Part shown: positions 3,745 to 49,320 of the stretch, piece by piece
How positions within the stretch are numbered: position 1 is the first letter of the stretch
Layout: the number at the start of each line of letters is the position of its first letter
NCBI GenBank assembly: GCA_002255955.1
Contig: NKIM01000007.1
Coordinates: forward strand, 1-64,000
DNA from: Burkholderiales bacterium PBB2
Lineage (GTDB): Bacteria; Pseudomonadota; Gammaproteobacteria; Burkholderiales; Burkholderiaceae_C
Direction: 5' to 3'
Length of the DNA stretch: 64,000 bases
Position numbers and translations under genes: made by a program
Notes under the pieces: model-generated
Database searches by the model: none
What the model was told of the DNA's origin: nothing
What the model saw: only the letters and a program-made list of their open reading frames with translations

Positions 3745-4452
3745 ATGGCAAAGCTGACTAAACGCCAAAAGGCCCTGCAAGGCAAGGTCGAAACCACCAA
3801 GCTGTACCCCCTGGGTGAAGCTCTGGCCCTGGTGAAGAGCCTGGCCACTGCCAAGTTTGACGAGTCCATCGACGTGGCCGTGCAACTGGGCGTGGATGCC
3901 AAGAAGTCTGACCAAGTCGTTCGCGGCGCGGTCGTGATGCCTCACGGTCTGGGCAAGACCAAGCGCGTCGCCGTGTTCGCCCAAGGCGCCAAGGCTGAAG
4001 AAGCCAAGGCCGCTGGTGCTGACGTGGTCGGCATGGAAGACCTGGCTGAGCGCATCAAGGCAGGCGACATGCCCTTCGACGTGGTGATCGCTTCGCCCGA
4101 TACCATGCGTATCGTCGGTACCCTGGGTCAAGTGCTGGGCCCCCGTGGCCTGATGCCTAACCCCAAGGTTGGCACTGTCACCCCCGATGTGGCTACCGCT
4201 GTCAAGAACGCCAAGGCGGGTCAAGTCCAGTTCCGCGTAGACAAAGGCGGCATCATTCACGGCACCCTGGGTCGTCGCTCGTTCGAGAACGACAAGCTGG
4301 AAGGCAATCTGCGTGCTCTGATCGAAGCCCTGAACAAGGCCAAGCCGGCCAGCAGCAAGGGTGTTTACCTGCGCAAGGTGGCGATCTCCTCCACGATGGG
4401 CGTTGGCGCCCGCGTGGATGTGGCCAGCATCAACGCACAAGCTTCGGCCTGA
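3745..4452 (+). CDS. rplA: 50S ribosomal protein L1
   Basis: L1 (235 residues) forms the mobile L1 stalk that helps release deacylated tRNA, and in other bacteria represses its own operon. Recognisable segments are [28 protein letters not shown] and the C-terminal [12 protein letters not shown]. The start at 3745 ([10 protein letters not shown]) is one base after the rplK stop; the rplK end itself contains the ribosome binding site GGAGGG. Length is typical. Confidence 0.99.
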
Positions 4453-36138: not shown

Positions 36139-37130
36139 CCCACCTCGCCGCGCGCGCCCGGCTCGGGTCCCTGGCTGTGGATCTGGACACCGTAGCGTTC
36201 GGCCGTCATGTGGGCCAGGATGGACAGGGCAATTTCGGGCGGCGTGCGGGCGCCGATGTGCAGGCCCACCGGGCCATGCAGGCGGGCCAGCTGCGCCGGT
36301 GTCAGGCCAAAGTGTTCGGCCAGGCGCGCCTTGCGCTTGCTCTGGTTGACCCGCGAGCCGATGGCGCCAACGTAGAAGGCCGGGCTTTGCAGCGCCTCCA
36401 TCAAGGCCAGGTCGTCGAGCTTGGGGTCGTGGGTCAGGGCGACGATGGCGCTGTGGCCGTCGGGCTGCATGGCGGTGACGACATCGTCGGGCATGTCGCG
36501 GCTGAGTGTGCAGCCGGGCACGGCGAAACCGTCGGCGTATTCCTCGCGCGGGTCGCAGATGGTGACGCGGTAATCCAGGCCCAGGGCCATCTGCGCCAGG
36601 TACTGGGTCATCTGCCCGGCGCCGATGATGAGCAGGCGCCACTGCGGGCCGTGGTGGCTGCGCAGCGTCTGGGCGTCCAGCAGCAAGGTGTCGGCACCGT
36701 GCTTGGGCGCCAGCAGCTGCACCTGGCCACTGTGCAGGTCCAGCAGGCGCTGCACCCGCTCGCCGCGGTCCAGGCGCTCCAGCAGGACCTCGATCTGCGA
36801 GGCCTCGCTGACCGGCTCGAGCAGCAGCTCCAGCGTGCCGCCGCAGGGCAGGCCGAAGCGCTGGGCTTCCTCGGCGCCGACGCCGTAGCGCAGCAGCTCC
36901 GGCCGCTGCAAGGCCAGGGCGCCCTCGCGCAGCTTGGCGATCAGATCGTCTTCGATGCAGCCGCCCGAGACCGAGCCGGCGATCTGCCCGTCATCCCGCA
37001 CCGCCACCAGCGAGCCCACCGGCCGCGGGGCCGAGCCCCAGGTGCGGGTGATGGTGCCCAGCACCGCGCCGCGGCCCTCACGGCGCCAGGCGGCCAGCTG
37101 CCGCAACACTTGCAAATCCACATTGTCCAT
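36126..37130 (-). CDS. xdhC: XdhC/CoxI-family molybdenum-enzyme maturation protein
   Basis: A 334-residue protein of the XdhC/CoxI family, which binds the molybdenum cofactor and inserts it (with the sulfido ligand) into xanthine dehydrogenase-type enzymes. The N-terminal domain shows SAPRPVGSLVAVRDDGQIAG followed by SVSGGCIEDDLI. The C-terminal Rossmann domain shows LLIIGAGQMTQYLAQMA and SRVNQSKRKARLAEHFG. No xdhA or xdhB is visible within the window, so its client lies elsewhere; it may also serve a CO dehydrogenase-like or isoquinoline enzyme. Confidence 0.9.
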   Translation of the reverse strand: MDNVDLQVLRQLAAWRREGRGAVLGTITRTWGSAPRPVGSLVAVRDDGQIAGSVSGGCIEDDLIAKLREGALALQRPELLRYGVGAEEAQRFGLPCGGTLELLLEPVSEASQIEVLLERLDRGERVQRLLDLHSGQVQLLAPKHGADTLLLDAQTLRSHHGPQWRLLIIGAGQMTQYLAQMALGLDYRVTICDPREEYADGFAVPGCTLSRDMPDDVVTAMQPDGHSAIVALTHDPKLDDLALMEALQSPAFYVGAIGSRVNQSKRKARLAEHFGLTPAQLARLHGPVGLHIGARTPPEIALSILAHMTAERYGVQIHSQGPEPGARGEVGCAL

Positions 37131-37224
37131 GCCGGCATCCTATGCGCTCGGCCCCGCGCCCGCGGCGCACAATGCGCTTACCCGATTGCTTTGCTGTGGA
37201 TGCCCCGCGCATGCCAACCCTGCC

Positions 37225-37365
37225 ATGAAACCCAAGCCTCAAGAACCGCTCAGCGCCGAGCCCACAACGACGGCGCCGCCGCCTGTGGCCAAGCCGCGCT
37301 GGTTCGAGGCCTTGCTGGCCTGGTATCTGGGCTGGCTGGGGCGCATCTTCACCGGCAAGCTCTGA
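37225..37365 (+). CDS. Small protein of unknown function (46 residues)
   Basis: The frame MKPKPQEPLSAEPTTTAPPP continues with a C-terminal amphipathic segment rich in tryptophan (WFEALLAWYLGWLGRIF). It could lie along the membrane. It starts 94 bases after the divergent xdhC gene start and has no clear ribosome binding site beyond a weak one. No family is recognised. Support is moderate: the codon use is host-like and it fills an otherwise empty interval. Confidence 0.45.
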   Translation: MKPKPQEPLSAEPTTTAPPPVAKPRWFEALLAWYLGWLGRIFTGKL

Positions 37366-37402
37366 GTCGGCTTGCGGGGCCTGCGTTGGCCCCTTGAACT
37401 TT

Positions 37403-37966
37403 CTATTTCGGCGTCTTCATCGGCGCGATGCCGCCGCAATCGGCGCCCAGCCAGCGGCCCTGGCTCTGTACCGACATGGTTTCGCTCTTGCCGCCGACGC
37501 GGGCGGTGCTGCTCATGCTGGAGCTGTAGGCCTCGGCGCTGCTGAGGGTGGTCGTGCCCTCGCCGCTGATGTCAGGGTCGCTGCAGCTGAAACGGTTCAG
37601 GATCTGTGCGCCCTTGCGCTCCACCTGGTGTTTGCAATTGCCCTGGCTGGACACCGGCAGCTGATTGAGCGCCGCCTGTTCGGCCGTGATGCAGACCTTG
37701 AGCGTCACCGCACCCGTGGCCAGGTTGGCGTTGACCCCTGCCTTGGCCATCATCTCTTCCATCCTCTTGCGCTGCTCGGCCGGCATCTGCGCCAGCTGCT
37801 GCTGGGCCTGGGCCATGGCTGCCTGGCGCTCGGGGCTGAGCTGGGGGTTCATCTTGATCTCCCACAGGCCCGGCTTGATGTTCTGGGCCTGAGCCAGCGC
37901 ACTGCCGGCCAGCAAGAGGGCTGCCCCCAGCGTTTGGAGGGCGGTGCGTGTCTTCAAGGGCGTCAT
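37403..37966 (-). CDS. DUF3617 periplasmic protein
   Basis: A 187-residue exported protein (signal peptide ending ALAQAQ, about residue 27). The opening GLWEIKMNPQLSPERQAAMAQAQQQL, with 'KPGLWE', is the DUF3617 hallmark. Cysteines in KVCITAEQA, GNCKHQ, FSCSDP and GADCGG suggest two disulfides. Function is not known for the family. It is downstream of and codirectional with the hydrolase gene at 38040. Confidence 0.82.
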   Translation of the reverse strand: MTPLKTRTALQTLGAALLLAGSALAQAQNIKPGLWEIKMNPQLSPERQAAMAQAQQQLAQMPAEQRKRMEEMMAKAGVNANLATGAVTLKVCITAEQAALNQLPVSSQGNCKHQVERKGAQILNRFSCSDPDISGEGTTTLSSAEAYSSSMSSTARVGGKSETMSVQSQGRWLGADCGGIAPMKTPK

Positions 37967-38039
37967 GTGCGGCTCCTGGGCCCGGCGGGGCCATGGCAGT
38001 GGAGCGGCCAGTGTAGCCAGCCGCTTGCCAGGGAGCGGG

Positions 38040-38999
38040 TCAGTGCGCGAGCCCATGCAGGCGCGCGCGCAGCCGCGGCGTGGCCTGCTCCACCGGCCCC
38101 AGCAGCAGGGGCCAGAGCTGGGCGCCCAACTCGCGGCGGAACATGCCGAAATGGCCGATGGCGCGCAGGCCCAGCTGGCGCGGGTCCAGGGTGTGGCGCT
38201 GCAGCGCGGCGCTGCGGAATTGCAGGCCCAACTGGTCCACCGCCGGGCCGGGGCCGAACAAGGTGTCGTCCGTCACATTCCACAAATGCACCGGGCCGGT
38301 GAAGCGGTGGTAGCCCAGATCAGCCTGCACCGCCGGGTCGGTGAACAGATAGCCCCGCCGCCGGCCCCAGCGCGCCCATTGCAGGGCCGCGCCCTTGGGC
38401 AGGTCTTGCGCCCGGCCGCCCAGCACCCAGCCGGGCGCATGGCCGAAGAGATGGCTCAAGCCCGGCAGCAGGGCATGGAAAAACAGCGCAGCCTTGGCTT
38501 TTTGCAGGCCGGCCCAGTAACGGAAATCGGCGGCCTGTGCGGCCACGCCCAGCACCGCGTCCAGCTGCTCGAACCCGGGCGCCAGCCCGATGGCCTGGCC
38601 GCCAAAGGAATGGCCGATGGCCAGAACGCCCAGCGGCTGGCCTTGCGCCCGCTGCTCGCGTTGGCGCCGGTGTTCGATGGCGCGCAGGGCGGCGGCCATG
38701 TCCAGCTGCGCCCATTCACGCAGGCCGGCCCGCTCCTGCCGCACCGAGCCCTGCAAGCTGCGGCCGATGCCGCGGTAGTCGTAGCTGAGCACGGCATAGC
38801 CGCGCCCGGCCAGCCACTCGGCAAAGCCGCGGTAGAAGCCGCTGGCCACGGCCATGGCCGGGCTGATCACAGCCAGGGCGCGCACCGGGCCCGCCGGCTC
38901 TTGCCAGCTGGCGTGCAGCAGGCGGCCGTCGGCGCAGCGTAGCTGCACGGCTTGGGCCGGGGGCAAGGCGTGGGGCAGGGTGGGGGCGGAGGGCTTCAT
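38040..38999 (-). CDS. Alpha/beta hydrolase
   Basis: A 319-residue alpha/beta hydrolase of the serine aminopeptidase/lysophospholipase-like type. The nucleophile elbow is GHSFGG (serine near residue 130). The oxyanion region is 'AVISPAMAVASGFYRGFAEWLA', followed by GYAVLSYDYRGIGRS. The acid and histidine are probably in NVTDDTLF and IGHFGMFRREL. Substrate unknown. It is divergent from the lysR gene, whose regulator may control it, the classical LysR arrangement. Confidence 0.85.
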   Translation of the reverse strand: MKPSAPTLPHALPPAQAVQLRCADGRLLHASWQEPAGPVRALAVISPAMAVASGFYRGFAEWLAGRGYAVLSYDYRGIGRSLQGSVRQERAGLREWAQLDMAAALRAIEHRRQREQRAQGQPLGVLAIGHSFGGQAIGLAPGFEQLDAVLGVAAQAADFRYWAGLQKAKAALFFHALLPGLSHLFGHAPGWVLGGRAQDLPKGAALQWARWGRRRGYLFTDPAVQADLGYHRFTGPVHLWNVTDDTLFGPGPAVDQLGLQFRSAALQRHTLDPRQLGLRAIGHFGMFRRELGAQLWPLLLGPVEQATPRLRARLHGLAH

Positions 39000-39118
39000 C
39001 GGGGTTCTGGGTGGATGGCTGGGCCGCGGCGTGGGGATTTGCGGGCAGCCGTGGCGGCCGGTGGATGGCGGTGGAGGGCTGTGGAACCAAGTGGTAGGCC
39101 GTGGAGGACACGGGAACT

Positions 39119-39153
39119 CAGTCTAGATTGGCGAGATTTCAGCGACTAGACTG
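39119..39153. promoter_or_regulatory. Inverted repeat CAGTCTAG-N19-CTAGACTG between hydrolase and lysR
   Basis: Two perfect 8-base arms (39119-39126 and 39146-39153) separated by 19 bases lie directly before lysR and 120 bases before the divergent hydrolase gene. The CTAG core is rare in bacterial DNA. The spacing is about two helical turns between arm centres. It is a candidate operator for the LysR protein; the pairing is inferred from position. Confidence 0.5.
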
Positions 39154-39155
39154 CG

Positions 39156-40274
39156 TTGAATCGACACATTGGTAATCAAACGTTGACAAGCAAGCCACGC
39201 CAACCGCCCGTTTCGCCATCGCCTGCGCCTACGCCTGCGCCGTCGACGCCGGCAGCAGTGGCAATCACAACGACAGCAATAACAAAAACAAAAACGACCA
39301 GCGCCCCGCGCCTGTCGCGCAGCCGCCGCACCGCCGCCGATCAGGCCCTTGACGCCAATGCCCTGGAACTGTTCGCCCGCATCGCCCAAGCCGGCAGCTT
39401 CGCCCGTGCGGCGCGGGATCTGGGGCTGACGCGTGCGGCCGTCAGCCGCCGCGTGGCCGCGATCGAATCGGCCGTGGGCCTGGCTCTGTTCGCACGCAGC
39501 ACCCGCAGCCTCAGCCTGACCGAAGCCGGCCGCCGCCTGCAAGCCCGCGCCCGCCTGGTGCTGGAAGCCACCGAAGGCGCCCGCCTCGCCCTGCGCAGCG
39601 AGCGCGACCAGCTCAGCGGCACTTTGCGCATCAGCGCACCGCCGGTGTTCGGCAACCATGTGTTGCCGCCGCTGCTGGCGCGGTTTCAGGCCTTGCACCC
39701 GGCGCTGCGCTATGAGCTGTTGTTCACCTACCGCCGGGTCGATCTGCTCGCCGAAGGCGTGGACCTGGCCTTCCGCGCCACTGCCCAGCCGCCCGAGGAC
39801 TGGGTGGCCCAGCCCCTGCTGCGCTACGCCGTGCGCGCCTATGCCTCGCCTGCCTGGGCGGCCGCGGCCGGCCCGCTGCAAGGGCCGCAGGATCTGCTGC
39901 ACCTGCCCTGCCTGCTGGTCGGCCAGCACGAAGACGCCAGCGAACGCCGCTGGCTGCGCGAAGACGCCCAGGGCCGCCCGCTGGAAGAAGCCGCACTCAG
40001 CCTGCGCGCCGCCGCCTGGGGCAATGACCACGAGGTGCTGCTGGCCATGGCCCGCGCCGGCGGCGGCGTGGTGCTCAGCCCGGACTTCTGCGTGCCCGCC
40101 GCCACCGAGAGCGGCGGCGGCCTGGTCGACGTACTGCCGGGCTGGCGTTTGACTGTGAAAGAAGGCGAATGGATCCAGGCCCTGAGCCTGCCCATGCCCG
40201 CCGGCTCAGAAACCGCCCGTGCCCTGGTGCGCTTCATCAAGGAGGCCTTGGCGGAGCAGGGGGCGGCGGCTTAG
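39156..40274 (+). CDS. LysR-family transcriptional regulator
   Basis: A LysR regulator. The helix-turn-helix begins LDANALELFARIAQAGSF and includes LTRAAVSRRVAAIE. A periplasmic-binding-like effector domain follows (LSGTLRISAPPVFGNHVLPPLL...). The open frame starts at a TTG at 39156, giving an unusual 60-residue Thr/Pro-rich N-terminal extension of repetitive sequence. A GTG at 39258 would remove 34 codons and is also possible. The protein is otherwise normal in length. It may regulate itself and the divergent hydrolase through the nearby inverted repeat. Confidence 0.85.
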   Translation: MNRHIGNQTLTSKPRQPPVSPSPAPTPAPSTPAAVAITTTAITKTKTTSAPRLSRSRRTAADQALDANALELFARIAQAGSFARAARDLGLTRAAVSRRVAAIESAVGLALFARSTRSLSLTEAGRRLQARARLVLEATEGARLALRSERDQLSGTLRISAPPVFGNHVLPPLLARFQALHPALRYELLFTYRRVDLLAEGVDLAFRATAQPPEDWVAQPLLRYAVRAYASPAWAAAAGPLQGPQDLLHLPCLLVGQHEDASERRWLREDAQGRPLEEAALSLRAAAWGNDHEVLLAMARAGGGVVLSPDFCVPAATESGGGLVDVLPGWRLTVKEGEWIQALSLPMPAGSETARALVRFIKEALAEQGAAA

Positions 40275-40638
40275 CGGGAGGGGCAGACCCTGGCCGGCGC
40301 GGTCATGGTTGGCTGGGCGCCGCTGTCGCGCTCCGCTGGGTGACCCCGCTGGCCCCGGAGCCGGGAGTTTGGGCGCGCGACACTCAAGGGTTGGCCTGAG
40401 GAACTAACGCCATGAACTGATGGCAATATGGCGAACCATCGACTGGCTGGATGTTGCGTTGCAGCCCAAGCCGAGTATTTGTAACTGGTGCGGCTTTTGC
40501 CGTGGAAGTTAATGCGGCTTGAAATCTCAATCCAGCAGCGAAAAAGCGTGATTCGACAGGCACTTGCTTGGGTTTTCGCCCGGTCGGTTATTGCGACAGC
40601 GGTCGTGATATGCGGCGTGCAGCTGCGACATACAACAC
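40275..40638. other. Gap before the cassette array; no integrase gene
   Basis: This 364-base stretch separates lysR from the first cassette core site. It contains no integron integrase and no full attC: the only nearby AAC triplets with any resemblance to a core are at about 40483 and do not pair well with GTTAAAA at 40639. A 43-residue frame (40512-40643) ends in the core site itself. The drop in GC content begins around 40400. Confidence 0.5.
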
Positions 40639-40643
40639 GTTAA
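40512..40643 (+). CDS. Possible 43-residue membrane peptide ending in the first core site
   Basis: The frame MRLEISIQQRKSVIRQALAW has a single hydrophobic stretch (VFARSVIATAVVICGV) and its TAA lies inside GTTAAAA at 40639. It could be the truncated last gene of a lost cassette or chance. No family or ribosome binding site is seen. Confidence 0.25.
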   Translation: MRLEISIQQRKSVIRQALAWVFARSVIATAVVICGVQLRHTTR

Positions 40644-40648
40644 AACTC

Positions 40649-41014
40649 ATGGGCAATCTCGCCGCGCTTCTCCAGTGGTTGTGGGCGCCACTCGTCGCCG
40701 CTGGTGTAAGCGTTGTTTACTTCCAGAGTTCGACGAGTTCTCGCTGGTTCGAACGCTTGATCACGTCAGTTCATGGCGCATCGCTGGCGATGCTTTACTT
40801 CGGCGCGTTGGGCATACATTCGCTCGGAATTTCCGATCCAAAGTTGGGTAAGGCGTACTGGCTGTCGCTGTTGGTTCCTTGTGGTCTTGCCCTGTACGCC
40901 ATAGCTCGCTTCAGTGGCAACAAGAAGATCCACCTACTTCAACTGGTCAATCTTTTGGCGGCCTTCTGGATTTGGTTTGTCGGCACGATGGCCGTGACGG
41001 GGAACTGGCTATGA
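40649..41014 (+). CDS. Cassette 1: four-helix membrane protein of unknown function
   Basis: A 121-residue hydrophobic protein. It starts MGNLAALLQWLWAPLVAAGV just four bases after the cassette core. Predicted helices are at about 8-24, 44-62, 72-88 and 98-116 (for example ASLAMLYFGALGI, WLSLLVPCGLALYAIA, LLAAFWIWFVGTM). No family is recognised. There is no strong ribosome binding site, as often found in cassettes. The stop at 41014 is directly followed by the closing R'' site. Confidence 0.7.
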   Translation: MGNLAALLQWLWAPLVAAGVSVVYFQSSTSSRWFERLITSVHGASLAMLYFGALGIHSLGISDPKLGKAYWLSLLVPCGLALYAIARFSGNKKIHLLQLVNLLAAFWIWFVGTMAVTGNWL

Positions 41015-41015
41015 G

Positions 41016-41072
41016 TTTTAACCTGTCATTGGAGCGGACCGCCTTCGGCGTCCGCTCACTTTCACGTTGAAC
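41016..41072 (+). repeat. attC: attC site closing cassette 1
   Basis: 57 bases from R'' TTTTAAC (41016-41022) to R' GTTGAAC (41066-41072). Inside, GAGCGGAC pairs with GTCCGCTC around CGCCTTCGGC. Outer parts CCTGTCATT and ACTTTCACG pair imperfectly with the unpaired bases expected for an attC. R'' is complementary to the core opening the cassette at 40639. Confidence 0.85.
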
Positions 41073-41080
41073 GTCATCAG

Positions 41081-41602
41081 ATGCTGGGCTCCCTCTTCCG
41101 ATCTTCAATCCCAAAGCAGGCGCTTGAGTACGCGGGGTTCGTGCTGGTTCATTGCGCAACAATCGCCGATTCCAATCGGGCTGGCGAACTTATCTGCCCG
41201 TTCGCAGTCGTCACAGAAGCCGATGGGCGGCGCGTGATCGACTTTGAATCTGAGACCCAGCAAGAGGCAGTCGCCAAAGGATGGGCTAGCCTTAACGAGG
41301 CTAGGTCAAGCCGAGTCTGGTGGGCCTTTGGGCGAGAAGGCATATACAGAGAGCCTGATGGAAAAGGAACGGATGTCCTGACGGTCACCGTTTGGCTTCC
41401 AGACATGAATCACCTCTACAGCATTACGCAGCGATTTGGCAGAGGCAGAGACCAAGAGCTTTATCTCACCGGAGAACCAGAATTGCTTGAGCACAAGACT
41501 GACCTGGTTGCACCGGTCACTCGCTGGGATCGGTCAGCACTAGCGCGCGGCATCGCTTCTCATCCGCAGGGCTCACGATGGGCGGAGTGGCGTTCACAAT
41601 GA
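41081..41602 (+). CDS. Cassette 2: unknown 173-residue protein
   Basis: A soluble-looking, mixed alpha/beta protein beginning MLGSLFRSSIPKQALEYAGF, eight bases after the core. Cysteines lie at HCATIA and LICPF. It has many charged residues and several tryptophans (RVWWAFGREGIY, VTRWDRSALARG). No signal peptide or membrane helix. The stop at 41602 precedes R'' by one base. No family recognised; as a cassette gene it may serve an accessory function such as defence or metabolism, which is not shown by sequence. Confidence 0.72.
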   Translation: MLGSLFRSSIPKQALEYAGFVLVHCATIADSNRAGELICPFAVVTEADGRRVIDFESETQQEAVAKGWASLNEARSSRVWWAFGREGIYREPDGKGTDVLTVTVWLPDMNHLYSITQRFGRGRDQELYLTGEPELLEHKTDLVAPVTRWDRSALARGIASHPQGSRWAEWRSQ

Positions 41603-41603
41603 C

Positions 41604-41660
41604 GTTCAACCTGTCATTCGAGCGTACCGCCTCCGGCGCCCGCCCACTTTCACGTTGGGC
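41604..41660 (+). repeat. attC: attC site closing cassette 2
   Basis: 57 bases from R'' GTTCAAC (41604-41610) to R' GTTGGGC (41654-41660). It is closely similar to the previous attC: both contain AACCTGTCATT, GAGCG, ACCGCCT and CACTTTCACGTTG. R'' is the exact complement of the core at 41066. Shared sequence between attC 1 and 2 suggests cassettes from the same pool. Confidence 0.88.
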
Positions 41661-41663
41661 ATC

Positions 41664-42227
41664 ATGAAGATCATCCGCCTCTCGCTTGTCCTTCTCTCGC
41701 TCATTGCATCGATCTCGCCGACGTTGGTCAAGGCAGATCGGTCGGAGTATTCGGTGGGCAATTCACCCCTGAAGCTCGTTAGTCGTTCAGATGGCGGCCA
41801 AGAGGGGCACTTCGCAAAATTTGTCGGAACAGTCCGCCTCAGTGGAACCTTGGTGGTCGAGTTTGATCGCCTCCCCGACATGACTGAAGACCGCGACACG
41901 GAAGGCCAAGCCTTCTTCCTTCCCGATGAAACGTCCCGCCTTAAGCTACCGGTCGCGGTTGGCGCCTTCTATCCTCGGCCCATCACTTCCATTTCGCTGG
42001 ACAAGAAACCTCGGGCGCTTCTCCTTCCTCTGCTCGGCCAGGGCAAGACCGAAGGCCTCCTGAAAGGGCGCATGCCCAGGTACGAGCTTCCGGCGACGCT
42101 CACCATCAAGTCTTTTTCGTCCTGGGTCGAATGTGATCACAGAAGCTACACAGCGGAGATTGCCTCGATCAAACCGCTACGCCCAGATCTAGTTGCAGGG
42201 GCCAAGTCCTCGCTCATTGGGTGCTAA
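41664..42227 (+). CDS. Cassette 3: exported protein of unknown function
   Basis: A 187-residue protein starting MKIIRLSLVLLSLIASISPT, with a probable signal peptide cleaved near VKA-D (about residue 25). The mature part is strand-rich (KFVGTVRLSGTLVVEFDRLP; LTIKSFSSWVECDHRSYTAEI), with two cysteines (ECDHRS and the final GC), so it probably works in the periplasm. The ATG lies three bases after R' GTTGGGC. A TTG inside R' would add three residues. No family recognised. Confidence 0.72.
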   Translation: MKIIRLSLVLLSLIASISPTLVKADRSEYSVGNSPLKLVSRSDGGQEGHFAKFVGTVRLSGTLVVEFDRLPDMTEDRDTEGQAFFLPDETSRLKLPVAVGAFYPRPITSISLDKKPRALLLPLLGQGKTEGLLKGRMPRYELPATLTIKSFSSWVECDHRSYTAEIASIKPLRPDLVAGAKSSLIGC

Positions 42228-42247
42228 TTCGCATGCCACGCAATGAT

Positions 42248-42357
42248 GCCCAACCCAGCGTTCGAGTCGACACGCGACGTCTGGTCACTACAGGCCCCAT
42301 TTCATTCTTGGCCTTTCGTGCCCAGCCGCCGCTCGTGGCTCAGCTTCGACGTTGTGC
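42248..42357 (+). repeat. attC: attC site closing cassette 3 (longer form)
   Basis: 110 bases from R'' GCCCAAC (42248-42254) to R' GTTGTGC (42351-42357). The start GCCCAACCCAGCGTTCGAG is the type often seen in Xanthomonas, Pseudomonas and Burkholderiales cassettes. R'' complements the cassette-opening GTTGGGC at 41654 exactly. The central part is longer and pairs less perfectly than the 57-base sites, so the outer limits rest on the cores. Confidence 0.78.
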
Positions 42358-42851
42358 GGCTCCCTTTTAAGCTTCATCAATTGCTCGCGAGCTTCCTCGC
42401 GGCCGGCGCTGCGCTGTTGCCCGTGCTATTCATGGCGCTGTCCGAGATTTCGACTGCGCCGTCCGGTGTGGTCGCTCTTGGCGAGCAGGATGACGCAGGC
42501 TACCGCGGTGCCGGCCTTGCCCTTGCCGCGATGCCTTTCCTGTACCTCTTTGCCGTTCCCATTTGCTATTCGGTTGGTGCGCTGCTGCTTTCGCTTCGGC
42601 TAGTCCGCCTGCTCAGCTTCCTGGCAGGCGCCACTTGTATCGCGCTTGTACTCGGGCTCGTCGTCGGCGTGCCTCTTGGTGCTTCCGTGCGGTTTGATGC
42701 CAAAGATCTGGCAATCACTGTCGGTGTAACAACCATGCTTTCCTTGGTCACGGTTCTGCCAGCCGCCTTCTGCTGGTGGCTGGTTGCGGTTCGGCCGCAC
42801 AACCCTGAAGTCCCCCGGTCGGTGCGCGATAAAGCCGTGCAGCGCCGGTGA
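42354..42851 (+). CDS. Cassette 4: membrane protein with about four helices
   Basis: A hydrophobic protein of about 165 residues. Helices include LLASFLAAGAALLPVLFMAL, LALAAMPFLYLFAVPICYSV, LSFLAGATCIALVLGLVVGV and VTTMLSLVTVLPAAFCWWLV. The frame is open upstream to an ATG at 42243, but those codons (PNPAFESTR...) are the attC translated, so they are unlikely to be a true N-terminus. A GTG at 42354 or TTG at 42381 are better candidates; neither has a clear ribosome binding site. The stop lies inside the closing attC. No family recognised. Confidence 0.62.
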   Translation: MRLPFKLHQLLASFLAAGAALLPVLFMALSEISTAPSGVVALGEQDDAGYRGAGLALAAMPFLYLFAVPICYSVGALLLSLRLVRLLSFLAGATCIALVLGLVVGVPLGASVRFDAKDLAITVGVTTMLSLVTVLPAAFCWWLVAVRPHNPEVPRSVRDKAVQRR

Positions 42852-42865
42852 CCTTCACGTTATCG
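42797..42865 (+). repeat. attC: attC site closing cassette 4
   Basis: 69 bases from R'' GCACAAC (42797-42803) to R' GTTATCG (42859-42865). R'' is the exact complement of GTTGTGC that opens the cassette at 42351. The inner parts CCTGAAGTCCCCCGG and CCGGTGACCTTCACG pair imperfectly, as in attC sites. It overlaps the 3' end of the cassette 4 gene. R' GTTATCG departs from GTTRRRY at one position. Confidence 0.78.
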
Positions 42866-42867
42866 CT

Positions 42868-43206
42868 ATGAGCGACTTCTCGGTGCAATTCGCGGCGAAG
42901 AATGAAGTGGTGAGCTATCAAGGATCTGAGGGCTTGCTCCACTTCAATGTGGGGCTTGTCGGCAAGGAGTGGCTCGTCTATCTGCCGCCCTTGGTGGGGC
43001 CACAGGGGGAGCCACACTTCCTTGGAGCGAACGAAGCCTCAACGGTGTTGCCTCGCGTTAAGAACTTCCTGTCACGCATCTGGTGGTTTGGCGTTTGGCC
43101 GGTGAACTATCAAGTTACATTTTTGGGCGAAGCTGTGGCGCCCAGCCCTTCAATCGAGAGCCTGATTCAAAGAACAAGCCGGCACGCGCCCACAAGCGAT
43201 GCGTGA
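42868..43206 (+). CDS. Cassette 5: unknown 112-residue protein
   Basis: The gene starts ATG three bases after the R' site (MSDFSVQFAAKNEVVSYQGS). The product is soluble, with GLLHFNVGLVGKEWLVYLPP and tryptophan-rich RIWWFGVWPVNYQVTFLGEA. No family recognised. The expected closing R'' (CGATAAC) was searched for by eye up to 43377 and not found. The cassette therefore has lost its attC, or the array was cut here. A short empty stretch (43207-43376) separates it from tspO. Confidence 0.6.
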   Translation: MSDFSVQFAAKNEVVSYQGSEGLLHFNVGLVGKEWLVYLPPLVGPQGEPHFLGANEASTVLPRVKNFLSRIWWFGVWPVNYQVTFLGEAVAPSPSIESLIQRTSRHAPTSDA

Positions 43207-43376
43207 TCGTCGAAGGTGTTGTCTCCATGGCGAATTGTGGGCATCTGGGCCCGGGGGGGCAGGTTCCATACACAATGCCGCTCGATCGGATTTCGGGTCC
43301 GTTCTGAAATGAATGCTCCAGCCTTCAGTGCAGCGGATGGCTGGGCCAACCGCGTCAATCAAACTTCAGGCCTCCC

Positions 43377-43883
43377 GTGATCCAAGCAGCAACGTCTCGC
43401 CCCCATCAAGCCCTCGGCTTCGCCGCATGGCTGCTGCTTTGCATCGCCACCAGCGGCATCGGTGCACTTGCATCCGTGAACGCTCGTACCTTCTACGCTG
43501 ACCTGGTTCGCCCGGTGTGGGCGCCGCCGGGCTGGGTCTTCGGGCCGGTCTGGTCGCTGCTGTTTCTGGCCATGGCGATTGCCGCGTGGTCAGTCTGGCG
43601 TGTACCTCAGGCGAGCAAGGGGCGTTCGATCGCCCTGGGCTTGTTCGTCGTCCAGCTCGTCGCCAATGCCTTGTGGAGTTGGCTGTTCTTTGCGTGGCAT
43701 CTGGGTGGCTTGGCCTTCGTCGAGGTGCTGCTGCTGTGGCTGCTCATCGCGGGCACCGCCATCGCCTTCTGGCGCATCAAACCAGCCGCTGGCCTGCTCT
43801 TGCTGCCTTATCTGGCGTGGGTCAGCTTTGCCTCGGTGCTGAATTACACGCTCTGGCAGCTCAATCCCACTATCCTGGGTTGA
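43377..43883 (+). CDS. tspO: TspO/MBR-family tryptophan-rich sensory protein
   Basis: A 168-residue membrane protein with five helices of the TspO/benzodiazepine receptor family. Typical segments are FYADLVRPVWAPPGWVFGPVWSLLFLAMAIAAW and ALWSWLFFAWHLGGLAFVEV. The conserved aromatic pocket (W, F, Y) is present. TspO binds porphyrins and may degrade or export them under stress. The start appears to be GTG at 43377 (GTG ATC CAA) with a weak ribosome binding site. It is the first host-type gene after the cassette cluster. Confidence 0.93.
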   Translation: MIQAATSRPHQALGFAAWLLLCIATSGIGALASVNARTFYADLVRPVWAPPGWVFGPVWSLLFLAMAIAAWSVWRVPQASKGRSIALGLFVVQLVANALWSWLFFAWHLGGLAFVEVLLLWLLIAGTAIAFWRIKPAAGLLLLPYLAWVSFASVLNYTLWQLNPTILG

Positions 43884-44097
43884 ATCGCTGCGCGTGGTGG
43901 CCTGACCTTTTGCCGGTCAGAAGCCGCTCTCAGGGCGCCCGGTTTCCGGGCTCAGCCTGCACTTGGCCTTGAGGAACGTGGGTTTGCGATGTGACCGATG
44001 TGCGTCGGACTGTTGCCCCCGACAGCCGCATCTTGGCACCGTGAGCTTCGAGCCTTGCACCTGTGGGCGTGAGCGCAGGAGGCGAGTTCTCGCCGCT

Positions 44098-45732
44098 TCA
44101 GTCCGCGTTTGCCGTCGGTCCCGGCGGCAGCCGCAGCACCATCCGGTCGCGCCCGCCCGCCTTGGCCTCGTACAGGGCTTCATCCGCGCGGCGGTAGGCG
44201 GCGCCCAGGTCCAGCCAGGTGGGTCGGCCCAGCACGGTGGCACCGATGGAGATGCTGAGCTGGCCGCTGGGGCTGGCCTGGTGGGGGCGGTGCAGATCGC
44301 GCACGGCGGCGTTCAGCTGCGCCAGCACCGGCTCCAGGGCCTGGCCTTCGGTCAGCATCAGCAGCACCGCGAACTCTTCACCGCCCACGCGGAACAGCAG
44401 GTCTGAGCTGCGCCGCAGCGCCGCCTGCAGGGCCTGGGCCACGGCGCGCAAGGCCTGGTCGCCCTCGGCGTGGCCGTAGTGGTCGTTGTACTTCTTGAAG
44501 TGGTCGATGTCGATCAAAGCCAGGCCCAGGGCCCAGCCCTGGCGTTGGGCCAGCGCCCATTGCTGCGGCGCCAGGGTGTCGAAATGGCGGCGGTTGTAGA
44601 GCCCGGTCAGGCCGTCGTGCTGGGCCAGGGCTTCGATCTGGCGGTTCTTGCGCGTCAGCGTGAAGACAAAGCCCAGGCTCAGGGCCAGCACCAGAACGGT
44701 GGCCAGGTGCCCGGCGCTGCTGTGCAGGCTGCTGCGCAGCAGGTCGTCCTCGCTGAGGTGCAGCTCCAGCGCCCAAGGCGCGCTTTTCAGCGGCAGGCGC
44801 AGGCGGATGTGGGGGCGCAGCTCGCTGTCGTCCTCCTGGCCCGGCGCGGGCGCCACGGCGACGATGCTGCGGCCTCGCGCATCGACCAGGTGGACATGGG
44901 CATGGGGCAGGGGCGTGGCGGCCAGACCGCGCTGCAGGCTGCTGACGCGCACATCGATGCTGACGCTGCCACGGAACTGGCCGTTCTGGTCGATGGGCTG
45001 GGTGACGGTGACGATGGCTTCGCGGTCACCGGCGTCGAGGTAGGGCTGGCTCCAGAAAGGGCGGCGCTCCGGGTTGGCCTCGGGCCGGGCATGGGCGAAG
45101 TATTCGCGGCCCAGCAGCTCGGGGCGGAACTGGAAGGTCTCCGCGCCCTTGGCCGGGAACACGAACATGAACTGGCGCGCCGAGGTGTACTGCACCCAGG
45201 GCACATCGGGGCTGCGTTCGCGAATCGCACGCATCAGCGGCGTCAGGCCCACGGCCATGGTCAGCTCCTCGGCCACCGGGTCGTCCAGCGCGGGCAAAGG
45301 CCCAAAGCCGGTGACCCGACCCAGCGAGGCCGGGTCGCCGAACTGGGGCGGCAGGCGCGACTCGTAGGCATGGCCGCCGTCGCGCGCATGGAGGCGGATC
45401 ACCGGGTTCTCGGCGCCGCGGATGCGGCCGCTGAAAAAACGCTCGGCCAGGTACTTCATGGCCAGCAGGTTGTAGACGTGGATGTCCAGCTCATGGTCGA
45501 GCGCCTCGGCCAGCTGCAGGCCGCTGCGCCGGGTCTGCTCCTGCGCCTGGGCCATGCCCTCGCGCACCCGCAGCACACTGCCCCAGGCGGCCAGTAGCAG
45601 GCATACGCTCAGGCCCAGCAGCACGGCCCGGTCGCGGCGCTGGCGCGAGCTCAGCGGGCTCGGCTCTGCCGGGGTGGGCTTGGAGGTGGCAGCGGAGGAT
45701 GAGGATGAAGAGGAGGGGCTGGACTCAGGCAT
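44098..45732 (-). CDS. Membrane diguanylate cyclase with periplasmic sensor domain
   Basis: A 544-residue protein starting MPESSPSSS. A first membrane helix (RAVLLGLSVCLLLAAWGSVL) is followed by a periplasmic region of about 230 residues of the Cache or CHASE kind (RLHARDGGHAYESRLPPQFGDP; FWSQPYLDAGDREAIVTVTQPI). A second helix (LATVLVLALSLGFVFTL) leads to a GGDEF domain (HDGLTGLYNRRHFDTL, RVGGEEFAVLL). The intact GGEEF suggests an active enzyme making c-di-GMP from two GTP. The signal is unknown. Divergent from selD. Confidence 0.92.
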   Translation of the reverse strand: MPESSPSSSSSSSAATSKPTPAEPSPLSSRQRRDRAVLLGLSVCLLLAAWGSVLRVREGMAQAQEQTRRSGLQLAEALDHELDIHVYNLLAMKYLAERFFSGRIRGAENPVIRLHARDGGHAYESRLPPQFGDPASLGRVTGFGPLPALDDPVAEELTMAVGLTPLMRAIRERSPDVPWVQYTSARQFMFVFPAKGAETFQFRPELLGREYFAHARPEANPERRPFWSQPYLDAGDREAIVTVTQPIDQNGQFRGSVSIDVRVSSLQRGLAATPLPHAHVHLVDARGRSIVAVAPAPGQEDDSELRPHIRLRLPLKSAPWALELHLSEDDLLRSSLHSSAGHLATVLVLALSLGFVFTLTRKNRQIEALAQHDGLTGLYNRRHFDTLAPQQWALAQRQGWALGLALIDIDHFKKYNDHYGHAEGDQALRAVAQALQAALRRSSDLLFRVGGEEFAVLLMLTEGQALEPVLAQLNAAVRDLHRPHQASPSGQLSISIGATVLGRPTWLDLGAAYRRADEALYEAKAGGRDRMVLRLPPGPTANAD

Positions 45733-45854
45733 GGTGGCCAGTCGGAGCGGCAGTGCCTGAAGCACTGTACGCAGCCTGGATGAATTTGTCGTCCATCTCG
45801 GAGCAGGCTGCTGCGGCTATGCTTTCGGCCCTGCGTCGTCTCACTAGCCCTGCC

Positions 45855-46943
45855 ATGTCAGCCAACCCGCCCCGCGAACCCGTCGACGAGCCCCGTCTGA
45901 CCTCCCTGTCCCACGGTGGCGGCTGCGGCTGCAAGATCGCGCCGGGCCTTTTGAGCGAGATTTTGCGCAGCAGCCAGGCCGGCATGCCCCTGCCGCCCGA
46001 GCTGCTGGTGGGCATCGAAACCTCGGACGATGCGGCCGTCTACCGCCTGAATGACGAGCAGGCCCTGGTGGCCACCACCGATTTCTTCATGCCCATCGTC
46101 GATGACCCTTTCGACTTCGGCCGCATCGCCGCCACCAATGCGCTCAGCGATGTCTACGCCATGGGCGGCCGCCCCATCATGGCCCTGGCCTTGGTGGGCA
46201 TGCCGATCGCGCGCCTGTCCACGGCCACCATCGGCCGCGTGCTGGAGGGGGGCGCCTCGGTTTGCCGCGAGGCCGGCATCCCCATTGCGGGCGGCCACAC
46301 CATCGATTCGGTCGAGCCGATCTACGGCCTGGTCGCCCTGGGTCTGGTGCACCCGCAGCGGGTGCAGCGCAATGCCGGCGCCCAGCCGGGCGATGTGCTG
46401 CTGCTGGGCAAACCGCTGGGGGTGGGCGTGCTCAGCGCCGCGCTGAAAAAAGGCCTGCTCGGCGCTGAGGGTTATGCCCGCATGCTGGCCAGCACCACCC
46501 GGCTCAACACGCCGGGCCCGGATCTGGCGGCCCTGGCGGGCGTGCATGCGCTGACCGATGTCACCGGCTTCGGCCTGGCCGGCCATGCGCTGGAGATGGC
46601 GCGTGGCTCGGGCTGCAGCCTGGCCCTGGACTGGTCGGCCGTGCCTCTGATCGAAGGCGTGCGCGAGTTGGCGGTGCAGGGCTGCATCACCGGGGCTTCG
46701 GGCCGCAACTGGGCGGCCTACGGCGCCGAGGTGGAGCTGCCGGCTGGCTTCTCGGCTGAAGACCTGGCCTTGCTCAGCGACCCGCAGACCAGCGGCGGCC
46801 TGCTGCTGGCCTGTGCGCCCGAGGCGCTGCCCGCCGTGCAAGCGGTGTTCGCGCGCCATGGCTTTGGGCCGGCGGCCGTGCTGGGCCGGGTGCTGGAGCG
46901 CAGCGCAGCGCCGCGCTTGCAGCTGCAGCGTTCGGCGGTCTGA
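45855..46943 (+). CDS. selD: Selenide, water dikinase (selenophosphate synthetase)
   Basis: SelD (362 residues) makes selenophosphate from selenide and ATP, the selenium donor for selenocysteine and selenouridine. The catalytic stretch is GGGCGCKIAP, with Cys26 before Lys27 (a Cys-type, not Sec-type, enzyme). It is followed by DDAAVYRLNDEQALVATTDFF and AGGHTIDS, ending with the PurM-like C-terminal domain. The ATG at 45855 gives the conserved N-terminus. No selA, selB or mnmH lies next to it in the window. Confidence 0.95.
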   Translation: MSANPPREPVDEPRLTSLSHGGGCGCKIAPGLLSEILRSSQAGMPLPPELLVGIETSDDAAVYRLNDEQALVATTDFFMPIVDDPFDFGRIAATNALSDVYAMGGRPIMALALVGMPIARLSTATIGRVLEGGASVCREAGIPIAGGHTIDSVEPIYGLVALGLVHPQRVQRNAGAQPGDVLLLGKPLGVGVLSAALKKGLLGAEGYARMLASTTRLNTPGPDLAALAGVHALTDVTGFGLAGHALEMARGSGCSLALDWSAVPLIEGVRELAVQGCITGASGRNWAAYGAEVELPAGFSAEDLALLSDPQTSGGLLLACAPEALPAVQAVFARHGFGPAAVLGRVLERSAAPRLQLQRSAV

Positions 46944-46971
46944 GTGCGTCTGATTTGAGGATCGCTCGCCG

Positions 46972-49320
46972 ATGAACCCCGCCGCGCCACCGGGCGACGA
47001 GGACACCACCCGCTTGTCGCTGGACGCCTGGGCCACGCTGGCGCCAGAGGCGCTGCCCCAGGCCACCGAGGCCCAGACCACCCGGCCTGCCACGCAAGGC
47101 CGGGTGGGCGACGCCCTGTCGCCGCCGCCGCCCAGCCCCGAGATCGGCGATGTGCTGGGCGCCTGGCGCCTGGTCGGTCAGCTCGGGCGCGGTGGCATGG
47201 GCCAGGTGTTTCTGGCCGAGCGCAATGACGGCCATTACCAGCAGCGCGCGGCCATCAAGCTGCTGCTGGGCTTGAGCGGCAACCAGGCCTCGCTCGATCA
47301 GCTGGCGCGCGAGCGCCAGATCCTGGCCTCGCTCAACCACCCGCACATCGCCCGCCTGCTGGACGGCGGCAGCACGCCGGCCGGCCTGCCCTACCTGGTG
47401 ATGGAGTATGTCGAGGGCGAGGCGATTGACCGTTATGTGGCGCGCCAGAAGCTGAGCCTGCCGGCCATCCTGGCCTTGTTCTCCATGGTCTGCGAAGCCC
47501 TGGCCTACGCCCACGGCCAGCTGGTGCTGCATTGCGATGTCAAACCGGGCAATGTGCTGGTGGGCGCCGATGGCCGGGCCATGCTGCTGGATTTTGGCGT
47601 GGCCCAGCTGCAGGGGCGCAGCGCCGCCGGCGAGCGCCAGCCCGGCGCCACCGATGGGCCGCGCAGCCTGGGCGCCACGCCGCGCTTTGCCAGCCCCGAG
47701 CTGCTGGCCTGGCAGCCGGTCAGCGCGGCCAGCGATGTCTACAGCCTGGGGCGCCTGCTGCAGGAGCTGCTGCAGCTGCACCAGCCGCAGGGGCCGGGCC
47801 CCTCGCCGCTGCGCCGGGCCGAGCTGGCGGCCATCATCGCCAAGGCCACCCAGCAGCGGCCCGAGCAGCGCTACCGCAGCGTGCCCGAGCTGCAGGCCGA
47901 TCTGCGCCGCTTCCAGCGCCAGCTGCCGATCGAGGCGCTGCCGCGCCGCGGTCCCTACGTCTTGCGCAAGCTGCTGCGGCGGCGCTGGCTGGCGCTGTCG
48001 GTCAGCGCCGGCGTGCTGTTGCTGGGCCTGGGCTTCAGCTGGAGCCTGGTGCATCAGCGCGATCTGGCCGAGGCCGCGCGCCAGCAGGCGCAGCAGGAGG
48101 CCGAGAACGCCAAGCGCGTGCGCCAGGTGGTGATCGCCATCTTCGAAGACTTCGATCCCTTTCTGATCGGCCGCCAGCCCAAGAGCTTTGCCGAGTTCAT
48201 CGACGATGCGGCGGCGCGGGTCGATGCCGATCTGAAACAGCAGCCCGCCGTGCAGGCCGAGATGAAGCATGTGCTGGGCCTGGTCTACCAGCGCAGCGGC
48301 CGCTCGCTGCGCGCCATCGAGCTGCTGGAGCAAGACCTGGCCCTGCAGCGCAGCCTGCCCCAGCGCGACCTGAACAAGGAAGCCCTGGCCCTGCACGAGC
48401 TCACCGTGGCCCTGGTCAACGCCGGCCTGGCCCCGCGCGCCTTGCCCCTGGCGCGCGAAGCCCTGGGCTTGCGCGAGGCCGCCTACCAGGCGCGGCCGGG
48501 CCAGGCCACGGGCAGCCTGCTCGGCGATTCGCTCGCGGCCCTGGGCCTGGTGCTGACGCGGCTGAGCGCGTTCGAGGAAGCCGGCCGCCACTACCAACGC
48601 GCGCTGGACATCCGCCGCCAGCATGACGGTGCGGAATCGGCCAAGGTGGCCTCGTCCCTGCACAGCCTGGGCGCCCTGGCCGAGCGCGAGGAGCGTTATG
48701 CCCAGGCCCAGGCCTGGTTCGAGCAATCGCTGGCGCTCAAGGCCCAGCGCCTGCCGCCCGACCACCCCTACACCCTCAATTCACGCTACGGTCTGGCCCA
48801 GGCCTTGCTGGGCCAGCAGCGCCTGGACGAAGCCTTGCCGCTGCTGCGCGAGCTGCTGGCGCAGCGCCGCCGCATCCACGGCGAGCGCAGCGTGTTTGCG
48901 CTGGAAACCCAGAGCCTGCTGGCGCGGGCCCTGCTGCGCGCCGGCCAGGGTCGCGAGGCCCTGGCCTTGCATGCGCAGGGCCTCAGCGAGCTGCAGGCCT
49001 TGCTGGGCGCCAGCGCCATGCCGGTGGCGCAGGAGCTCTTGTGGTTGGCCGAGGCGCAAGAGGCCCAGGGCGAGGCGCGCGCGGCCCTGCGTTCGCGGCG
49101 CGAGGCTCTGGCCATCCAGCTGGCCCAGGCCCCGTCGGACCCGGTTCAGCAGGCCTGGGCGCGGCTGCAGCTGGGCCGGGCCTTGCTGCGCGCGGGCGAG
49201 GCGCAAGAAGCCCGGCCGCTGATCGTGGCCGCCGCGGCCGAGCTGCAGAAGCGGCGTTGGCCCGCCGGCCACAGCCTGGAAACCCAGGTCAGCGCCGCCC
49301 TGGCGGAGCTGGGGCGCTGA
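46972..49320 (+). CDS. Serine/threonine protein kinase with TPR repeats
   Basis: A 782-residue kinase starting 28 bases after selD. Kinase landmarks are the glycine loop GRGGMG (72-77), K96 (AAIKLLLG), the catalytic HCDVKPGN with D189, the DFG at 207-209 and GATPRFASPE. The usual Arg in HRD is Cys here, so activation-loop control may differ. A membrane helix (SVSAGVLLLGLGFSW) lies near residue 340-357. It is followed by a periplasmic region with repeated tetratricopeptide-like units (for example ALAEREERYAQAQAWFEQSLAL). The layout matches bacterial kinases with TPR C-termini. Targets unknown. Confidence 0.9.
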   Translation: MNPAAPPGDEDTTRLSLDAWATLAPEALPQATEAQTTRPATQGRVGDALSPPPPSPEIGDVLGAWRLVGQLGRGGMGQVFLAERNDGHYQQRAAIKLLLGLSGNQASLDQLARERQILASLNHPHIARLLDGGSTPAGLPYLVMEYVEGEAIDRYVARQKLSLPAILALFSMVCEALAYAHGQLVLHCDVKPGNVLVGADGRAMLLDFGVAQLQGRSAAGERQPGATDGPRSLGATPRFASPELLAWQPVSAASDVYSLGRLLQELLQLHQPQGPGPSPLRRAELAAIIAKATQQRPEQRYRSVPELQADLRRFQRQLPIEALPRRGPYVLRKLLRRRWLALSVSAGVLLLGLGFSWSLVHQRDLAEAARQQAQQEAENAKRVRQVVIAIFEDFDPFLIGRQPKSFAEFIDDAAARVDADLKQQPAVQAEMKHVLGLVYQRSGRSLRAIELLEQDLALQRSLPQRDLNKEALALHELTVALVNAGLAPRALPLAREALGLREAAYQARPGQATGSLLGDSLAALGLVLTRLSAFEEAGRHYQRALDIRRQHDGAESAKVASSLHSLGALAEREERYAQAQAWFEQSLALKAQRLPPDHPYTLNSRYGLAQALLGQQRLDEALPLLRELLAQRRRIHGERSVFALETQSLLARALLRAGQGREALALHAQGLSELQALLGASAMPVAQELLWLAEAQEAQGEARAALRSRREALAIQLAQAPSDPVQQAWARLQLGRALLRAGEAQEARPLIVAAAAELQKRRWPAGHSLETQVSAALAELGR

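Follow-up and report, generated by a model that had tools for sequence, protein, structure and literature searches.

A chromosomal integron that probably lost its integrase gene, kept attI and later exchanged cassettes in trans

Can a cassette array that has no integrase gene beside it still exchange cassettes, and how did it come to lack the gene? The question is raised by five codirectional open reading frames (ORFs) on contig NKIM01000007.1 of Burkholderiales bacterium PBB2 (GCA_002255955.1; genome G000 in our numbering, 5.48 Mb in 90 contigs). We analysed positions 1 to 64,000 of this contig (C23), called the window here, where the ORFs are flanked by a LysR gene (39156-40274) on the left and a TspO gene (43377-43883) on the right. 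A first-pass annotation had described them as an integrase-less cassette cluster, meaning a CALIN (cluster of attC sites lacking integron integrases) or an integron remnant. To our knowledge, it is largely open whether CALINs are dead. Judging from sequence comparison, the locus is probably a chromosomal integron that lost the integrase gene intI, kept the recombination site attI and a short array, and later had cassettes exchanged in trans. The comparison covered 18 genomes of the genus including PBB2 (Paucibacter/Roseateles by the names of the relatives). Searches with covariance models and leader models scored 150 candidates per genome, and therefore genome counts from them are lower bounds.

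The five ORFs and four attC-like sites lie where the first-pass annotation had placed them. Its claim that the opening R' and closing R'' cores match in four out of four cassettes also held, and the exact inverted repeats exceed the 7-bp core. They are 12 bp long in cassette 1 (GTTAAAACTCAT, 40639/41011), cassette 2 (GTTGAACGTCAT, 41066/41599) and cassette 3 (GTTGGGCATCAT, 41654/42243), and 10 bp in cassette 4 (GTTGTGCGGC, 42351/42794), while the end of cassette 5 is lost. Six inverted pairs of 9 bp starting with GTT are found at the locus; elsewhere in the window, 103 of 112 overlapping 2.6-kb stretches contain none and nine contain one. Repeats of at least 9 bp also occur at 14 of 22 consecutive site pairs of seven arrays (19 pairs from PBB2 and three from the sister genome G011), a count from which the arrays on contigs C25, C18 and C82 are excluded.

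The bare pattern RYYYAAC-N(35,65)-GTTRRRY did not discriminate attC sites (40 matches per strand vs 60 in a backwards control), and therefore we turned to a covariance model with a hand-set structure, for which 12 attC sites of the same genome, all outside the window, served as training set. Run without filters, the model has its three best matches in the 64-kb window at attC 1 (41016-41072, 62.7 bits, E = 4e-15), attC 2 (41604-41660, 58.0 bits, E = 8e-14) and attC 3, a long form (42248-42357, 29.2 bits, E = 1e-5), all on the forward strand. The check by covariance model that had been proposed for the locus thus recovers three of the four sites with a model independent of the window. The degenerate attC 4 (42797-42865, forward strand) has no match at E <= 10 and rests on its 10-bp R'/R'' match. 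The next-best match in the window, at 43315-43371 on the forward strand (13.7 bits, E = 0.21), is not significant alone; it aligns with a counterpart in G011, itself decayed and not matched by the model, and we list it as a decayed last attC. Folded as DNA and compared with shuffles, attC 1 is better on both strands (z -4.0, -4.2), attC 3 on the bottom strand (z -2.6), attC 4 only on the top strand (z -3.1; bottom -1.1) and attC 2 on neither (z -0.5, -0.7). A search of the window against Rfam (gathering thresholds) found a single tRNA and no family of attC type. Together, the attC sites and the R'/R'' pairs uphold the site-specific insertion of the cassettes.

To the left of cassette 1, homology to intI-adjacent sequence and the leader model R2 mark a leader with attI at 40473-40641 on the forward strand. 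Over 181 bp this leader is 73.5% identical to the intI-adjacent region on contig C22 of the genus genome G010, and the roughly 170 bp up to the first R' also match the head of another PBB2 array, on C37 (69.5-70.5%). The predicted attI, recognised by this homology and by the position of its G^TT, ends in ACAACACG^TT with the recombination point after base 40639. The motif ACAACACGTT is common to ten aligned leaders, three of which are without intI (window, G011 and C37), and seven with intI, which were picked from 17 for holding the motif. Further to the left, the reverse strand at 40400-40429 reads ILPSVHGVSS at the IntI start, and thus intI is cut after about ten codons; the start codon has changed from ATG to ATA. 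The counterparts of this stub read MLPSNRGVIS... in the complete intI of G010 C22 and MLPSVHGVSS in G011. Four IntI proteins gave nothing significant by tblastn against window positions 37001-47000 (best E 0.44), so that only the stub stands beside the array. The LexA box for SOS control of intI is not found at the locus either: positions 40515-40530 read CGGCTTGAAATCTCAA where G010 C22 has CTGTATGAAACAACAG, and the best match has 7 of 10 consensus positions, the same as in shuffles.

Because the array begins at attI with a 5' stub of intI, we regard the locus as an integron that lost intI and not as an off-target cluster. By the formal definition it is a CALIN, with at least two close attC sites (three by covariance model, a fourth by R'/R'') and no intI nearby, and it is a remnant, as annotated, but the attI and the stub identify it as an integron without its intI. 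The alternative, in which an IntI encoded elsewhere put cassettes into a chance secondary site, agrees with the absence of intI from the locus, its presence elsewhere in the genome and the 49-bp identity between attC 1 and one attC from the intI-bearing C51 array. It is contradicted by the attI leader and stub, which are homologous to intI-adjacent sequence; on account of this match a chance site was dropped as the left end, and we consider such an origin highly improbable.

In our suggested account, the integrase gene would have been removed by a deletion that struck within the 5' end of intI, leaving attI and a short cassette array in place. The G^TT of attI would be where cassettes are joined, just as normal integrons do it, and after the loss an IntI from elsewhere, encoded on C51 or C88, may have inserted and excised the attI-proximal cassettes in trans.

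That the cassettes changed after the loss is indicated by G011, identical in sequence to the record 'Rubrivivax sp. C4_MAG_00088'. The two genomes align in a single piece over window positions 37501-40642, and then the alignment stops. Identity is 1043/1129 in the LysR gene, 104/126 in the spacer and 210/241 in the leader, falling to 15/39 just past G^TT and 81/197 in the next 200 bp, where random pairs give 0.455 +- 0.041. G011 thus has the same intI-less junction, followed from G^TT by a different first cassette. Because both genomes are without intI at this junction, the loss should predate their split, and because the junction is common while the first cassette differs from G^TT onwards, the cassettes at attI should have changed after the loss. 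Such a change is most simply explained by an integrase acting in trans; we infer both that an IntI made the later exchanges and which IntI it may have been. A second G011 contig, with four attC matches at E <= 0.001, carries cassettes 4 and 5, then extra cassettes and then the right flank; its homology to cassettes 4-5 of the window (94%) starts at 42349, that is at R'.

A second intI-less pair, on PBB2 C37 and G010 C38, is 83.6% identical over 2466 bp, up to G^TT (G at 4408/3453, end of alignment at 4410/3455), with 88/184 identity beyond. Furthermore, two intI-less attI sites of G010, on C38 and C47, have diverged leaders (116/170) followed from G^TT by the same first cassette (363/400). A third orthologous place, on PBB2 C73 and G010 C12 (91.8% over 3184 bp), is neutral on turnover because the homology stops before the leader and the attI of C73 is incomplete.

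The differences could instead have reached a static remnant, which had no site-specific event since the loss of intI, as segments brought in by homologous recombination from intI-bearing relatives. The locus does show decay. G011 has 1.38 kb extra between window positions 43148 and 43157, and because the window lost this piece, gene 5 has no closing attC and cassette 5 is fused to the tail of a later cassette; the claim that attC sites separate five genes is therefore right for the four sites but not for the 3' end of the fifth ORF. Moreover, decay has reached attC 4 and the last attC, and the attI leader and cassette 4 offer common ends for homologous exchange. We judge a static remnant unlikely, because two orthologous pairs independently break at G^TT and because a single genome has the same first cassette behind two intI-less attI sites that have diverged. 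The word remnant itself may be too passive, because the attI-proximal cassettes differ between sister species after the loss.

Several points weigh against exchange in trans as the preferred reading. Homologous exchange of array segments between relatives, replacing the cassettes between common ends, is possible. No full intI was found in G011, the assembly of which is 76% complete; its array lies on two contigs which are joined here by inference, its first cassette has no attC match before the contig end, and the R'/R'' rule holds for one of its three site pairs. In the window, attC 1 and 2 are in good shape, but the decay of attC 4 and of the last attC is what a dying array would show. Selection on attI is not evident, as between window and G011 it is barely more conserved (63/66) than the dead intI stub (28/30), next to 32/35 in the dead LexA region and the spacer value given above. 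Finally, the C51 integron has an attI of a different type (AACAAAGTT), and because of this only C88, with ACAACACGTT, is an obvious match to the attI of the window.

The term integrase-less is accurate for the locus but not for the genome, in which complete intI genes above the TIGR02249 cut-off were found on C51 (474 bits) and C88 (420 bits) only, and five other matches fall below it. In an alignment of 17 IntI proteins, both keep by eye what we take to be the R, HxxR, H and Y motifs. The tail of the C88 IntI is unlike that of the 15 other IntI complete there in the alignment and presumably XerC-like, so that an IntI-XerC chimera is possible. The attC model gave at least 35 matches in the whole genome at E <= 0.001 and at least 41 at E <= 10, the 12 training sites included. 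At E <= 10, two or more matches each lie on C51, C88, C37, C34, C25, C18, C73, C82 and the window contig, and single matches on five contigs. The first 1000 positions of C60 contain an N-terminal intI fragment and, by eye, an attI-like region; this is apparently another broken integron.

Instead of being removed by simple deletion, intI may have been parted from attI by a rearrangement that broke an integron in two. This would concern the mode of loss and is compatible with later exchange in trans. None of 47 LysR loci has a TspO or selD match (E <= 1e-8) beside the LysR gene, many contigs ending soon after, and G010 has a window-type attI with intI where PBB2 has the C51 integron; both fit a split. 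The end points of residual intI vary by eye and look like separate deletions, and C51 carries the other attI type, which makes a split rather unlikely. The C51 and G010 C22 integrons occupy the same chromosomal place (flank 95.6% over 5.8 kb), with 70% nucleotide identity in intI and different attI types, that of G010 being window-type. Going by these sequences, this place seems to have exchanged one intI-attI module for another.

Leaders like that of the window are found across the genus. R2 is a sequence-only model trained on four leaders, and because three of these are intI-less, the intI-less loci that it returns are a biased sample and give no frequency. It gave at least 27 matches at E <= 0.1 in at least 14 of the 18 genomes. 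Twenty R2 loci were checked over up to 1.5 kb per side: five have a full intI, 14 have no intI match and one, on G014 C2, has a 36-residue intI fragment. The intI-less leaders number 17 with the window, 15 from R2 loci plus those on G010 C38 and C47. G008 C3 was excluded because its leader is 77 bp from the contig end, and G009 C34 and G014 C19 (E 0.06-0.09) are outside the examined set. The intI stub, with the start region TGGCAAnAT, is kept at 13 of 15 intI-less leaders, and the intI residue ends at differing points by eye. With 9 of 10 consensus positions as the minimum, a LexA box stands at 16 of the 17 intI genes (the exception, on G010 C38, has 8/10) vs none of the 15 intI-less leaders, where the best matches have 6-8 positions, like shuffled sequence. 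The aligned CTG-N10-CAG is present in 5/5 leaders with intI vs 1/15 without (Fisher p = 0.0004, which takes the loci as independent, although window and G011 are not).

The core ACACGTT is kept in six of the 15 (window, G011 C68, C37, G010 C12, G008 C1 and G014 C2) and also in G010 C38 and C47. An attC match follows within about 1 kb at seven of these eight leaders; the exception is G011 C68, where the contig ends 677 bp past the junction. Among the nine intI-less leaders without ACACGTT, two (G007 C355 and G009 C47) have an attC match 0.9-1.05 kb on. It is quite possible, and we put it forward tentatively, that genomes of the Paucibacter group keep several non-autonomous integrons, i.e. attI platforms without intI and SOS box which one or two intI-bearing integrons serve in trans. 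If true, one integrase would run a network of arrays at several chromosomal sites, with the same cassette movable between them. Paucibacter sp. Y2R2-4 (G008) has at least 44 attC matches but lacks an intI above the cut-off; its contigs C2 and C6 carry two intI fragments, both C-terminal (positions 205-315).

CALINs have been described before, as have the ways in which they may arise and be used in trans (PMC8618304, PMC12444791, PMC9024848). Proposed origins include off-target insertion and loss of intI (PMC8618304), a functional IntI can act in trans to mobilise intI-less attC arrays (PMC12444791), and CALINs and complete integrons occur in similar numbers (2961 vs 2760; PMC9024848). The window locus resembles CALINs as attC arrays without an adjoining intI but has an attI and an intI stub. 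A Shewanella prophage CALIN beside a complete integron likewise has attI heading an integrase-less array with intI elsewhere; that is one prophage case, whereas here an intI stub and cassettes differing between species are seen at several loci on the chromosome (PMC9892861). Xanthomonas has chromosomal integrons at ilvD with inactivated intI and CALINs at other loci, but the intI-less CALINs of X. citri pv. citri share the same two cassettes, unlike the attI-proximal cassettes here (PMC12444791). Treponema phagedenis also kept attC sites and cassettes with intI gone; its array was called static in a study centred on attC and not attI (PMC3607928). Among the literature matches listed, titles and abstract openings named neither an intI-less attI with cassette turnover nor integrons of this genus. 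The locus separates off-target insertion from loss of intI as CALIN origins and offers comparative evidence, drawn from sequence, that an intI-less attI may still exchange cassettes. It also suggests a simple test elsewhere, namely to screen the heads of CALINs for an attI together with an intI stub, which the standard program skips outside class 1: IntegronFinder detects no attI there (PMC9024848).

The cassettes, all on the forward strand, encode proteins with no Pfam, PADLOC or NCBIfam match. Cassette 1 (40640-41066) carries an ORF of 121 aa (40649-41014), unknown and hydrophobic by eye, cassette 2 (41067-41654) one of 173 aa (41081-41602), and cassette 3 (41655-42351) one of 187 aa (41664-42227) with a signal-peptide-like start by eye. 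Single-sequence folds were poor (mean pLDDT 41.9 for the cassette 2 protein, 41.6 for that of cassette 3). Cassette 4 (42352-42859), which is common to G011, encodes a membrane protein by eye (42354-42851); its start is more likely the GTG at 42354, at R', than the ATG at 42243 beside attC. The truncated cassette 5 (42860-43148) has an ORF, 42868-43206, ending in foreign sequence. The deletion scar (43149-43314) consists of an attC piece and then the tail of a later cassette, and 22 bp at 43139-43160 match the attC that G011 has after a cassette which by eye looks glyoxalase-like. Among 399 genomes of the order, PBB2 aside, the cassette 2 protein has a sole relative (32% identity), which belongs to another family (locus L137) and also lies between two attC matches.

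A simple pattern scan of 40200-43500 for the sigma-70 consensus, as in a cassette promoter Pc, gave 0 matches vs 0.9 expected. The left flank is a LysR-type regulator on the forward strand (PF03466/PF00126) with a match at E <= 1e-60 in 9 of the 18 genus genomes, PBB2 counted. The TspO/MBR gene (PF03073), also on the forward strand, has a close orthologue (96%) only in G011 among the 18 genomes and remote relatives (31-33%) in two others, and may itself have been acquired.

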